This document shows positions 1,883-55,214 of a stretch of 64,000 nt of DNA, piece after piece. The translations under genes were made by a program, and so were the position numbers. The stretch is from Bernardetiaceae bacterium (lineage in GTDB: Bacteria > Bacteroidota > Bacteroidia > Cytophagales > Thermoflexibacteraceae). The stretch is taken from assembly GCA_025057115.1 (NCBI GenBank), contig JANWWZ010000012.1, positions 1 through 64,000 on the forward strand, read 5' to 3'. The notes under the pieces were generated by a model. That model had not been told where the DNA came from. It saw only the letters and a program-made list of their open reading frames with translations, and searched no databases. How positions within the stretch are numbered: position 1 is the stretch's first letter; each line of letters starts with the position of its first letter.

Positions 1883-2152
1883 AGTTAATATTTGATTTTT
1901 TTTGACAAGTAATTAGGCGATTTATCAAGAAAACTATAATATCGGCAATTTTACAACTAGTTGCGTGCTGCTTACTGCTATCGTTTTTAGCAACTAAATC
2001 AGCAAGGAGATGAGCCAAGTAAGTAGCTTACTTGCAAATATAAGTATAATGAGCTAAAAAACGCTTATCGCTTAAGATTCCCTATGCTTGGCAAAAAACT
2101 ATGCATCAGTAAAAAGATGCGAAAAACAGTTAATTTCATTAACCATATAAAT

Positions 2153-2177
2153 AAAAAAGATGCGCAAAGCGCATCTT
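2153..2177 (-). terminator. rho-independent terminator of the tRNA-like RNA unit
   Basis: A perfect 9-bp stem (AAGATGCGC paired with GCGCATCTT) with a 3-base loop is followed, reading the minus strand, by a run of T residues (the A run at 2153-2158). It lies about 50 bases downstream of the 3' end of the second tRNA-like RNA and reads in the same direction. Confidence 0.75.
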
Positions 2178-2226
2178 CTTTAAACCTTAACCAATAAACA
2201 ACACATAAAATAAACACATGCTTTGG

Positions 2227-2375
2227 CTGTAGGGGAAGGATTCGAACCTTCACGGGGTCGTTAGGCAGCTGCAAAGAAAATGAAATGCTTTAGTTTCAAT
2301 TTCTCTGCAGGCTTTGTCCGATAATTCCCCACCCTCGAGACCGGAGGGCATGGCTGCCAGTTTCATCACCCTACA
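2227..2375 (-). ncRNA. tRNA-like RNA with giant variable arm, copy B
   Basis: This 149-nt RNA folds as a class II tRNA at both ends. It has a 7-bp acceptor (TGTAGGG with CCCTACA), a 3-bp D stem with an 11-base loop containing GG as in tRNA-Leu, a 5-bp anticodon stem (CCCTC/GAGGG) and a 5-bp T stem with loop TTCGAAT. The discriminator is G and a CCA follows directly (2226-2224). Two features are wrong for an elongator tRNA. The 7-base anticodon loop CGGTCTC has G, not U, at position 33. The variable region is about 80 nt, closed by GGGG/CCCC and holding a hairpin of about 17 bp (CTGCAGAGAAATTGAAA against TTTCATTTTCTTTGCAG, 15 of 17 paired). It is the downstream member of a two-copy unit and its function is unknown. 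Confidence 0.7.
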
Positions 2376-2432
2376 TTATAAAGTATTCAATACAGTTGAC
2401 TTATATTGAAAATTTTTCAATTACTTTGCATG

Positions 2433-2577
2433 CTGTAGGGGAAGGATTCGAACCTTCACGGGGTCGTTAGGCACAAAAGAAAGTGAAGCAAATAGTTGTT
2501 TCACACTCTTTGGCTTTGTCCGATAGTTCCCCACCCTCGAGACCGGAGGGCATGGCTGCCAGTTTCATCACCCTACA
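2433..2577 (-). ncRNA. tRNA-like RNA with giant variable arm, copy A
   Basis: This 145-nt RNA is the promoter-proximal copy. Acceptor, D, anticodon and T arms match copy B base for base, as do the segments flanking the variable arm (GGGGAAYTATCGGACAAAGCC and GCCTAACGACCCC). The hairpin between them has a different sequence yet still pairs (AAAGAGTGTGAA with TTCACTTTCTTT), which argues that the structure is maintained by selection. The discriminator is G, and unlike copy B no CCA is encoded. A 57-base spacer with an AT-rich hairpin (ATTGAAAA/TTTTCAAT) separates it from copy B. If the middle bases of the loop were read as an anticodon it would be GTC, but G33 makes decoding doubtful. Confidence 0.7.
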
Positions 2578-2599
2578 TTGACTTGTTCAACCAGCGATG

Positions 2600-2631
2600 C
2601 AAAGTTATAGTAGACGAGCATTATATTGCAA
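2600..2631 (-). promoter_or_regulatory. promoter of the tRNA-like RNA unit
   Basis: On the minus strand a TTG (2631-2629) is followed after 21 bases by TAACTTTG (2607-2600), matching the Bacteroidota consensus TTG-N19-21-TAnnTTTG. Transcription would begin near 2593, about 15 bases before the 5' end of copy A. The opposite strand has a weaker box (TTACTTTG, 2661-2668) for the Lrp-type gene. Confidence 0.65.
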
Positions 2632-2714
2632 ACTTTGCAACAGAATTTTATAAAATTTAGTTACTTTGCAATAAAATAGGTGTTTTATTGAAGAAATTGT
2701 TTTTTACAACGCCC

Positions 2715-3197
2715 ATGAGCGACAAAAATTTAGAAATTGACAATATCGACATTAGGATATTGTCCGAGTTAATGAAGGATGCCAAAACGCCTTACACCGA
2801 AATTGCAGATAAGGTATGCGTCTCTGGAGGCACCGTGCACGTGCGCATGAAAAAATTAGAAAAAATGGGCATAGTGCGGGGAGCCTCGCTCATTATTGAC
2901 TTTAGCAAACTGGGCTACGATATCACTGCCTTTTTGGGCATCTATCTACAAAGAAGCTCCATGTATGAAGCCGTTTGCAATGAATTAGTCAAAATCCCTG
3001 AAATCCTTACGCTCAATTATACTACCGGAGCTTATAATATTTTCGCCAAGCTCATTTGCCGAGATACCAATCATCTCAGAGAAGTGCTTTATGAAAAAAT
3101 TCAAAAGATTAGGGGTATAGAGCGGACTGAGACGTTCATTTCTCTTGAAGAACGCCTTAACCGACCTTTGCAGATAGACCAGAGTCTTTATAAGTAA
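2715..3197 (+). CDS. Lrp/AsnC family transcriptional regulator
   Basis: The product has an N-terminal winged-helix of the AsnC type (residues 5-65: one segment LDNIDIRIL-like, then TEIADKVCVSGGTVHVRMKKLEKMG) and a C-terminal RAM/ligand-binding domain (about 70-155) ending in the family's typical TFISLEE region. Such proteins are dimers or octamers that respond to amino acids. I chose the ATG at 2715 because it gives the usual family length (160 residues) and the N-terminus MSDKNLEIDN; an in-frame TTG at 2688 would add nine residues. It ends 3 bases from the convergent ribBA. Its targets are not visible. Confidence 0.88.
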   Translation: MSDKNLEIDNIDIRILSELMKDAKTPYTEIADKVCVSGGTVHVRMKKLEKMGIVRGASLIIDFSKLGYDITAFLGIYLQRSSMYEAVCNELVKIPEILTLNYTTGAYNIFAKLICRDTNHLREVLYEKIQKIRGIERTETFISLEERLNRPLQIDQSLYK

Positions 3198-31979: not shown

Positions 31980-32053
<74 letters not shown>

Positions 32054-53309: not shown

Positions 53310-55214
53310 TTAATCCTCCCAAGTAATCTTCAATCGCTTCCACCAGTGCTGAAACACCACCAGCGCCCAGAGATGGTTCTGCTCCACTGGGCGCCCTTTT
53401 AATAGCTGTTCTTTCAATTGGCTAACGTAAGAAGGATTAAAGACACCTTGCTGCTGAATAAATTCTTCTCCCAATAAGTCTTTTTCTATCCAAGTGCGCC
53501 AAATGGTGCGGAACGCCTTCAGTAAAGGCACTTCAAATCCTTTTTTAGGGCGATTGAATAACTGTTTAGGCAACAAGTTGCGAAAAGCCTCTTGTAGTAT
53601 TCTTTTGTTAAGTTGTCGATTAATTTTATACTCTTCAGGTAAACACAAAGCAAATTCTACTAAGCGATGGTCCATAAAAGGAACGCGCACTTCTAAGCCG
53701 TGTGCCATGCTCATGCTATCAGCCTTGTGAAGCATATCGTTGGGCAAAACAAGGTGCACATCAGCAAAGAGCACTTGATTGAGTCCGTTGTTACCAATTA
53801 ACTCTTGCCACCGCGCTTTGCGTTGGAAAAATTCCTTTACTACTTCTTCATGGTGTTTTATTTGAAGCAATTGCATAGCTACCTTTTCTGGCATAAAACA
53901 GCTTAAAAACCAGTAGCGCTCTGGTGGTGTCAGCAAAGCTGCCTGGGCTAGCCGTTGCATTCGCCTAAATCGATTTTGCCATGCGCTATTTCGCGATTTA
54001 GGTAATTTTTCTAGCAAAGGAGTTAAAAATTTTACAAGTTTTACACGCCAATTGCCATTTCGAATCCACCATTCTGCGCGATATTTTTGATATCCGCCAA
54101 AGAGTTCATCGGCTCCATCGCCTGAGAGGGCTACAGTTACATGCTGGCGGGTCCTTTGGCTGAGAATGTAGTACGGAATGGCAGAGGAATCAGCAAAAGG
54201 CTCTCCCATGAGAGGTAAAATTTTTTCTACTGCTTCAAATAAATCTTCATTTTTCAACTTAAACGTGTAGTGATAGGTGCCGAAATGTCGTGCTACGATT
54301 TCGGCGTAATTAGTTTCGTCAAAAAAAGGCTCTTCTTGGTAACCAATAGAGAAAGTTTGTAAATGGTTTTTTAATTGTTTTGCCAGCCCTGTAATAATAG
54401 AAGAGTCTATGCCCCCGCTCAAAAAGGTTCCTAAGGGTACATCAGCTACCATCCGTTCCGCTACGGACTGCTCCAGTAGAGTTACTACTCGGTGGCAGGC
54501 TTCTTGGTAGCTGCCCTTGTAAGCATTTTGTTGAAGAGGTTTAGGAGGAGCATACCAGCGAATGACTTCGCGCTGGCGCTTTTGCAGGCGGATGTAGTGC
54601 CCTGGAGGAAGTTTGTACACATTTTTTAAAGCAGTATAAGGAGCGGGAATGTAATGCAATTGGAAATACTCAATTATAGAAGCCTTATCTACTTGTCGCG
54701 GAATGCCAAAAGCTAAAAGCGCGTTTAGTTCCGAAGCAAATAAAAATTTGTCTTCGTCTTCATACCACAGTAAAGGTTTAATGCCCATGCGGTCGCGGGC
54801 AAGCAACAGACTTTCTTCCCACGCATCGTAAAGAGCAAAAGCAAAGAAGCCATGTAGGTAAGAAAGTCCTTGGGTGCCATTTTTGATAAGCCAGTAAAGC
54901 AATACTTCTGTATCAGACTGGGTGCGGAAAGGGATGCCCTCCCTTTCTAGAATGTTGCGAAGTTGCCTAAAGTTGTAGATCTCTCCATTGAAAACGATGG
55001 TATAGCGTTCTGTTACATCGCTCATGGGTTGGTTGGCTTCTGCAGTGAGGTCTATTACTGCCAGTCTTCTATGTCCTAAGCCACAGCGATGATGATCGAA
55101 AAGCCTTCCCGCATCGGGACCGCGATGAGCTAAGGCATTGGTAGCAGCAAGCAAGTTAATCATGCTGAACCGACCTATTTCGTTGTATGCGTAAATGCCA
55201 CAAATGCCACACAT
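53310..55214 (-). CDS. asnB: asparagine synthase (glutamine-hydrolysing)
   Basis: The 634-residue enzyme has an N-terminal class II glutaminase with Cys2 (MCGICGIYAYN), HRGPDA and the RLAVIDL segment. The synthetase domain begins near residue 235 with the ATP-binding motif LSGGIDSSII, and has ALSGDGADELFGGYQKY. It makes asparagine from aspartate, glutamine and ATP. The length is typical of the Bacteroidota/Bacillus AsnB family. It is convergent with the symporter and divergent from cas6. Confidence 0.95.
   Translation of the reverse strand: MCGICGIYAYNEIGRFSMINLLAATNALAHRGPDAGRLFDHHRCGLGHRRLAVIDLTAEANQPMSDVTERYTIVFNGEIYNFRQLRNILEREGIPFRTQSDTEVLLYWLIKNGTQGLSYLHGFFAFALYDAWEESLLLARDRMGIKPLLWYEDEDKFLFASELNALLAFGIPRQVDKASIIEYFQLHYIPAPYTALKNVYKLPPGHYIRLQKRQREVIRWYAPPKPLQQNAYKGSYQEACHRVVTLLEQSVAERMVADVPLGTFLSGGIDSSIITGLAKQLKNHLQTFSIGYQEEPFFDETNYAEIVARHFGTYHYTFKLKNEDLFEAVEKILPLMGEPFADSSAIPYYILSQRTRQHVTVALSGDGADELFGGYQKYRAEWWIRNGNWRVKLVKFLTPLLEKLPKSRNSAWQNRFRRMQRLAQAALLTPPERYWFLSCFMPEKVAMQLLQIKHHEEVVKEFFQRKARWQELIGNNGLNQVLFADVHLVLPNDMLHKADSMSMAHGLEVRVPFMDHRLVEFALCLPEEYKINRQLNKRILQEAFRNLLPKQLFNRPKKGFEVPLLKAFRTIWRTWIEKDLLGEEFIQQQGVFNPSYVSQLKEQLLKGRPVEQNHLWALVVFQHWWKRLKITWED

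Follow-up and report, generated by a model that had tools for sequence, protein, structure and literature searches.

A family of tRNA-like RNAs with hairpin-capped variable arms beside asnC-like genes, and their possible role as carriers in asparagine formation

Comparable systems and the locus

Not every tRNA is devoted to decoding; a non-proteinogenic tRNA-Gly, for example, serves staphylococcal cell walls. The RNA described here would likewise be a tRNA kept for metabolism, although its amino acid, shape, host taxa and regulator are all different. In E. coli, asnC and asnA are divergently oriented genes. AsnC activates asnA and asparagine dampens this activation, as outlined in an excerpt of PMC8707732. 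An AsnC-type gene also adjoins a unit predicted to make asparagine in the present case, but the partner is an RNA and not AsnA, of which the host genome has no match.

Asparagine can also be formed on a tRNA by a non-discriminating AspRS, tRNA-Asn and GatCAB. According to a review (PMC9976931), the AspRS determinants are G73, G34, U35, C36 and C38, the amidation determinant is U1-A72, and the antideterminants are G1-C72 and U20a. The RNA shares U1-A72 with this route and GatCAB is encoded in its genome; in contrast, the carrier would have the body of a class II tRNA, with decorations on a long variable arm, and would be separate from the decoding tRNA-Asn. Since it bears an aspartate-type anticodon loop, an ordinary AspRS would do.

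With respect to shape, the closest relatives are class II tRNAs, and tRNA-Leu in particular, which resemble the RNA in the D arm, the GU before the T stem and the general body. Ordinary tRNA-Leu genes are the next matches of the family's covariance model, R1, at ~45–60 bits. The RNA differs from them by G73 instead of A73, U1-A72, an Asp-type loop and an extended variable arm, with copies 109–196 nt long. Allo-tRNAs and tRNA-Sec share the long variable arm, G73 and the fate of odd tRNAs overlooked by standard tools, whereas the RNA has acceptor and T stems of 7 and 5 pairs, unlike their 8/4, 9/3 or 13-bp branch.

The window, meaning the whole stretch of 64,000 nt that was analysed (contig JANWWZ010000012.1 of a Bernardetiaceae bacterium), contains two such RNA genes in tandem on its minus strand, each with a hairpin capping the variable arm. 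Together they form an RNA operon that diverges from an asnC-like gene, with the following features:

2432–2577, minus strand: tRNA-like RNA, copy A, the upstream copy of the operon (144 bits with model R1; covariation)
2226–2375, minus strand: tRNA-like RNA, copy B (143.5 bits with model R1)
2471–2514, minus strand: variable apical hairpin of copy A (sequence and fold)
2265–2312, minus strand: variable apical hairpin of copy B (sequence and fold; compensatory exchanges in the genus)
2539–2545, minus strand: anticodon-position loop of copy A, CGGTCTC, with G34, U35 and C36 as in tRNA-Asp and C38, but with G33
2337–2343, minus strand: anticodon-position loop of copy B, CGGTCTC, in which U35, C36 and C38 are those found in 96/96 copies
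2715–3197, plus strand: divergent Lrp/AsnC-family regulator, closest to AsnC (Pfam PF01037, PF13404)
2590–2640, minus strand: candidate promoter region, with TTTG (2632–2629), 21 nt and TAACTTTG (2607–2600), and a palindrome, TTGCAAAGTTTGCAA (2640–2626)
2152–2182, minus strand: intrinsic-terminator-like hairpin of 14 pairs after copy B (2 found in the region, 0.6 expected)

Both RNAs go uncalled by ARAGORN and Rfam, which call only a tRNA-Ala at 31980 in the window. No Rfam tRNA match occurs at 2000–2700 even at an E-value of 5, and both copies are missing from the 34 RF00005 matches of the genome. The region's only tmRNA match is 17 nt long and scores 6.5 bits, as compared with 149 bits for a separate tmRNA of the genome. 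Among the matches listed in a search of the open-access literature, there was no earlier report of this RNA, and the family is apparently unreported.

The window's regulator contains the AsnC-type helix-turn-helix and ligand-binding domains of Pfam. Its best match among 10 models is NCBIfam AsnC at 154 bits, which is below the equivalog cut-off of 227; the next model scores 78. A divergent Lrp/AsnC gene lies 123–347 nt upstream of the RNA (measured to the aligned part of the regulator) in 93 of the 137 loci whose upstream sequence extends for 700 nt or more; the other 44 show none. A gene of the regulator cluster was found in 48/80 loci of the named set, with all 12 listed positions divergent, and an AsnC-type gene also adjoins the RNA on an Ignavibacteriales contig (L124). 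Beyond the regulator, SufB- and SufC-like genes, named by eye, are located in 16 and 12, respectively, of 80 loci (L119–L198).

Of the 93 intergenic regions, 44 contain TTTG-N18..22-TAnn(n)TTTG, versus 0.88 in mononucleotide shuffles and 3 on the other strand. The pattern resembles the Bacteroidetes promoter consensus. Neither the palindrome nor TTGCAAANTTTGCAA as a candidate AsnC operator proved general, with 24/93 intergenic regions within 2 mismatches.

Structure of the RNA and evolution of its hairpin

The body of the RNA consists of a 7-bp acceptor stem, a Leu-like D arm, an anticodon arm, a T arm and a long variable arm. The canonical acceptor stem, 5-bp anticodon and T stems, and T loop are borne out by covariation; T loops are of the TTCGANT type, and the T stem is bulged in some copies. 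In the variable arm, stems of 4 bp and then 3 bp lead to a conserved internal loop, beyond which lies a hypervariable cap, namely the hairpin picked out in the sequence-only reading. The internal loop reads RANAAA on its 5′ side (found in 80/96 copies) and CUAA on its 3′ side (near that side in 92/96), and may be of the UAA/GAN type. Half of the viral copies differ at this loop, with CUGAA or UUGAA in 24/64.

In an alignment of 30 copies, 96.7% of cells are paired and 18 of the 30 pairs change on both sides, with 111 double-changed cells versus 29.5 in shuffles (0/500 as high). Pairing falls to 48–56% when partner strands are slid, a comparison biased towards the hand-drawn structure because it was drawn from the same sequences. 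The 98 distinct rows of a model-fitted alignment, which leans towards the structure, give 96.8% pairing, two-sided change in 20/30 pairs and 369 double-changed cells versus 92.8. Covariation among homologues, proposed as a check when the hairpins were first described, thus backs the structure in both shuffle comparisons. In a few copies, inspection by eye suggested a pseudoknot between the anticodon loop and the variable bulge, but this was inconsistent; helix 5, the 3-bp stem to the 3′ bulge, covaries instead, although within the window's genus some copies have it disrupted. Some bacterial copies (L113, L116 and L134) have extra small hairpins inserted close to the D loop or into the variable bulge, some with CCCGATAGCTATCGGG, and other D-loop insertions are seen in viral copies.

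Both hairpins exist as first described, in a minus-strand reading. The hairpin of copy B pairs CTGCAGAGAAATTGAAA with TTTCATTTTCTTTGCAG inside the interval 2261–2325 originally given, and that of copy A pairs AAAGAGTGTGAA with TTCACTTTCTTT. The flanks, noted as the same in both copies, are near-identical, with agreement at 42/42 bases on one side and 67/68 on the other. When each RNA is folded in full, copy B has z = −3.49, with 0/200 shuffles reaching its stability, and copy A has z = −1.37 (21/200), so that copy A by itself is not beyond chance. What settles the reality of the hairpin is pairing in homologues: in the model-fitted alignment, its first pair is CG in 49 distinct rows, GC in 29, UA in 14, AU in 2, UG in 2 and unpaired in 2, out of 98. 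At the third pair, 96 rows of that alignment have letters, and 46 of them are unpaired. Apical segments of at least 20 nt are found in 72 of the 80 genome copies that could be split by a simple rule, with a median z of −2.94 and 63/72 below −1 (mononucleotide shuffles); 16/96 genome, 13/101 cellular and 18/64 viral copies could not be split.

Structural selection acting on a changing sequence, as suggested in the sequence-only reading, is supported by covariation over the homologues. The further idea that the hairpin sequence is exchanged is not, since each hairpin is copy-specific within the genus. The four B copies of the genus show one G-C to A-U exchange (the window versus three relatives), one A-U to G-C exchange (in G003) and one broken pair, C·U (in G001), while the A-copy stem is nearly invariant. 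Over the four species, hairpin identity is 89.5% between A copies and 71.8% between B copies, as compared with 55–68% between A and B of one genome. The core behaves the other way: A and B of the same genome are 99.0, 95.1, 99.0 and 98.1% identical, versus 93.7% (A-A) and 95.1% (B-B) between species. With cores more alike within a genome and hairpins more alike per copy, the core looks homogenised and the hairpin appears to be kept per copy.

A long hairpin is not needed in every member. Only a short capped stem is present in some copies, such as GCGAAAGC in L022 and CCCGCAAGGG in L019. One of the listed copies (L018:1433–1551) combines an intact cloverleaf and loop with a degenerate, AT-rich variable arm, and is one instance of the missing hairpin that had been named as evidence against a selected structure. 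The hairpin is one part of the RNA family, and the invariant parts are elsewhere. An apical motif, GGGUUGACCAC or GGGGUAGACCACC, is common to L013, L075, L100–L109 and most viral copies, with counts among split copies of 21/80 (genome), 42/88 (named cellular) and 45/46 (viral); it is missing in the window's copies. Pairing of the anticodon with an apical GAC motif was considered and dropped because the window's hairpins lack that motif.

Identity positions and distribution

Identity positions were tallied in three sets of usable copies, with identical rows counted once: 96 from genomes (BLAST and model matches), 101 cellular and 64 viral. Rows dropped were two from the first set (one partial, one with masked bases), one from the second and 19 from the third (17 weaker, at ≤53 bits, and 2 partial). 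The loops of the cellular and viral sets are biased by the pattern used to select them.

All 96 genome copies have U1-A72, G2-C71, U3-A70, G73-C74, U35, C36 and C38. Position 34 is G in 70, A in 16, C in 6 and T in 4, so four of the five AspRS determinants are present in 96/96 and all five in both window copies. U33 is found in 77/96 and missing in 19/96, the window's copies included, where G34 is preceded by G33. The U1-A72 pair is kept in 100/101 cellular and 62/64 viral copies as well; among the latter, acceptor pairs 3-70 vary, G2-C71 and G73 are constant, and U33 with GUC occurs in 64/64, the loop being partly fixed by the search pattern (which allowed G33 and A34). With regard to GatCAB, U1-A72 is present, and the D loop GGCAG is read as lacking base 20a. 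The invariant positions thus appear to match the published determinants of AspRS and GatCAB. By comparison, CTGTCAC is the loop of the genome's own tRNA-Asp, which begins with a G1-C72 pair, and U1-A72 with G73 is found among its 22 tRNAs shown in tRNA-Asn and tRNA-Gln.

Model R1, whose E-values are rough, splits strong matches from ordinary tRNA-Leu at ~45–60 bits, and the RNA was counted as present at E below 1e-17; the order and phylum scans used stricter filters, at which weak matches may be lost. A BLAST search with copy A matched 25/39 genomes, its own included. In the order sample, 140/194 genomes have a match at that threshold, and in four more (G025, G125, G161 and G192) the RNA is truncated where a contig ends. 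The phylum sample was positive in 12/12 genomes of the order (one, G023, just by a 77-nt, 71-bit match), 18/61 others of the class and 2/223 outside the class, both of one genus. Groups named among the matches listed in a pattern scan include Chitinophaga (with Chitinophaga pinensis, L119), Niabella, Algoriphagus, Cyclobacterium, Saprospiraceae MAGs and one Ignavibacteriales MAG. The two pattern scans (named cellular and viral) yielded at least 120 stretches each, of which 80 loci each were used. Most loci (99/145) hold one copy and one holds seven, in a set that mixes numbered and named genomes and includes no fewer than 6 pairs with the same copy in both members.

Every one of the 80 pattern-picked viral loci has a strong match (72.9–135.3 bits). 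When 24 chosen viral loci were run through ARAGORN, 5 had no called gene and others lay in tRNA clusters, several with tmRNA; for example, L251 contains 24 tRNAs plus tmRNA and L281 contains 25 plus tmRNA. A tblastn search of the 80 loci found no AsnC-like or GatB match. Of 10 proteins from 10 viral loci, 3 match phage DNA polymerase or terminase models, 2 are without a match, and the rest are an exonuclease, GroEL, a radical SAM protein, a glycosyltransferase and a family of unknown function. No match was obtained by blastn against plasmids and isolate phages. Whether or not the mechanism proposed below is right, a conserved, phage-carried tRNA-like RNA family uncalled by ARAGORN and Rfam deserves a name.

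Co-occurrence with GatCAB and candidate functions

Within order and class, GatB was found in 30/30 RNA-positive versus 3/43 RNA-negative genomes, uncorrected for phylogeny. Further genomes of the order had GatB in 25/25 RNA-positive cases, in 3/3 then ambiguous ones and in 30/52 first called RNA-negative (28 over the cut-off), mostly where GlnRS is missing; two of those 52 (G125 and G192) later proved positive for the RNA. Beyond the class, many genomes have GatB but not the RNA. GlnRS is present in 33/49 RNA-positive genomes, including that of the window (32 over the cut-off, one a contig-end piece), 2/20 that are RNA-negative and GatB-positive (G125 being among the 20) and 10/11 negative for both. 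Among genomes with GlnRS, GatB accompanies the RNA in 33/33 and occurs in 2/12 without it (Fisher 2e-8, phylogeny uncorrected); one genome, G067, has GatB and GlnRS with no RNA found. Since these 33 RNA-positive genomes have GlnRS, and AsnRS exceeds its cut-off in 78/80 genomes, GatCAB would be unneeded there for Gln- and Asn-tRNA. AsnB is over the cut-off in 66/80, the window's own genome included, and a second asparagine route would therefore often be superfluous; the idea of the RNA as sole asparagine source was discarded as not general. In the window, 53535–55211 on the minus strand matches AsnB-type asparagine synthetase at 472 bits. AsnA matches are found in 8/80 genomes (5 over the cut-off), and tblastn of the 8 loci, with flanks up to 1.5 kb, revealed no AsnC-like gene beside AsnA.

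Taken together, the identity determinants, GatB and AsnC suggest an amino-acid carrier for tRNA-dependent asparagine formation under AsnC control, rather than an ordinary decoder, a reading that we hold to be evenly poised between right and wrong. AspRS would charge the RNA with aspartate by way of G73, G34, U35, C36 and C38, and GatCAB would then amidate the bound aspartate to asparagine by way of U1-A72. The amount of RNA would be set by AsnC, in parallel with its control of asparagine synthetase A in E. coli, and the asparagine would be released from the RNA or passed on. The hairpin may close the conserved internal loop, either as a stable cap or as a module for protein binding. The analysis itself documents structure, conservation, distribution, synteny, the promoter pattern and the co-occurrence with GatB, while charging, amidation, control by AsnC and the fate of the amino acid are inferred. 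A fuller version, put forward tentatively and at somewhat less than even weight, is that of a dedicated non-decoding tRNA in Cytophagales, Chitinophagales and relatives, on which GatCAB converts AspRS-loaded aspartate to asparagine. Control would lie with an AsnC that senses asparagine and is positioned opposite the RNA gene, just as in E. coli it stands opposite asparagine synthetase. Phages, which bring their own copies, would therefore need the RNA during infection. Points counted against the carrier are that G34 is not invariant and U33 is missing in some copies; that AsnB is common, that GatB occurs in RNA-negative genomes of the order, and G067; and that 44/137 loci lack the divergent gene and the AsnC match is below its cut-off. 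If the carrier reading is true, a common group of environmental bacteria possesses an overlooked RNA that moves asparagine formation to a purpose-built carrier, apart from decoding, which would help explain why GatCAB is retained in genomes with both AsnRS and GlnRS. In an excerpt of PMC4206432, genomes with AsnRS, GlnRS and GatCAB were surveyed, and the combination was attributed to the action of a non-discriminating AspRS on tRNA-Asn; with an RNA that has an aspartate anticodon, that explanation would no longer be needed.

The GatCAB link could also be a by-product of shared ancestry, with clades that keep GatCAB happening to keep the RNA. The co-occurrence counts are tallies without a tree, and family f26 makes up a large share of the RNA-negative genomes of the class. 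Nevertheless, we consider this doubtful, as the RNA-GatB pattern recurs inside two families in which all genomes have GlnRS. In f23, G195 and G311 lack both RNA and GatB, and G270, G289 and G398 have both; in f24, G210 and G304 lack both, and G200, G226, G281, G315, G338, G436, G452 and G474 have both.

An unlikely alternative to the carrier is a structured regulatory or decoy RNA, in which a tRNA-like shell provides processing and stability, the RNA stays uncharged or only titrates AspRS or GatCAB, and the hairpin does the work. In favour of this are the combination of a homogenised core with hairpins that are hypervariable and copy-specific; bulged T stems, the D-loop insertions of phage copies and the loss of U33 in 19/96 point the same way. 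Yet the acceptor end and the loop positions relevant to AspRS and GatCAB are the most conserved parts, and loading would need to be incidental to the GatB link.

Distinctly unlikely, in our estimate, is a decoding tRNA with a special task, such as placing Asp or Asn at particular Asp codons or replacing tRNA-Asp during phage infection. Phage copies that lie beside translation RNAs, several of them in clusters with tmRNA, and that are without AsnC would fit a translation role too, as would their uniform U33 and GUC in a loop partly fixed by the pattern. A normal tRNA-Asp is, however, present in the genome and in several phages, some cellular copies have lost U33, and bulges can occur in the T stem. 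A serine-accepting RNA is very improbable: SerRS does use a long variable arm and G73 (excerpt of PMC7609411), as in tRNA-Sec and allo-tRNAs, and both features occur in 96/96 copies, but 4 bp into the variable arm there is a bulge of several bases, a bulge nucleotide added to the V stem of allo-tRNAs abolished serine charging (excerpt of PMC7590224), and the invariant U35, C36 and C38 would be left unexplained.

Finally, three viral contigs (L259:7682–7830, L267:9979–10112 and L270:4907–5050) carry tRNA-Leu-like genes with inserts of 40–60 nt and the acceptor sequence AGTCAGG. These are weak model matches, uncalled by ARAGORN, and are perhaps intron-bearing tRNAs.
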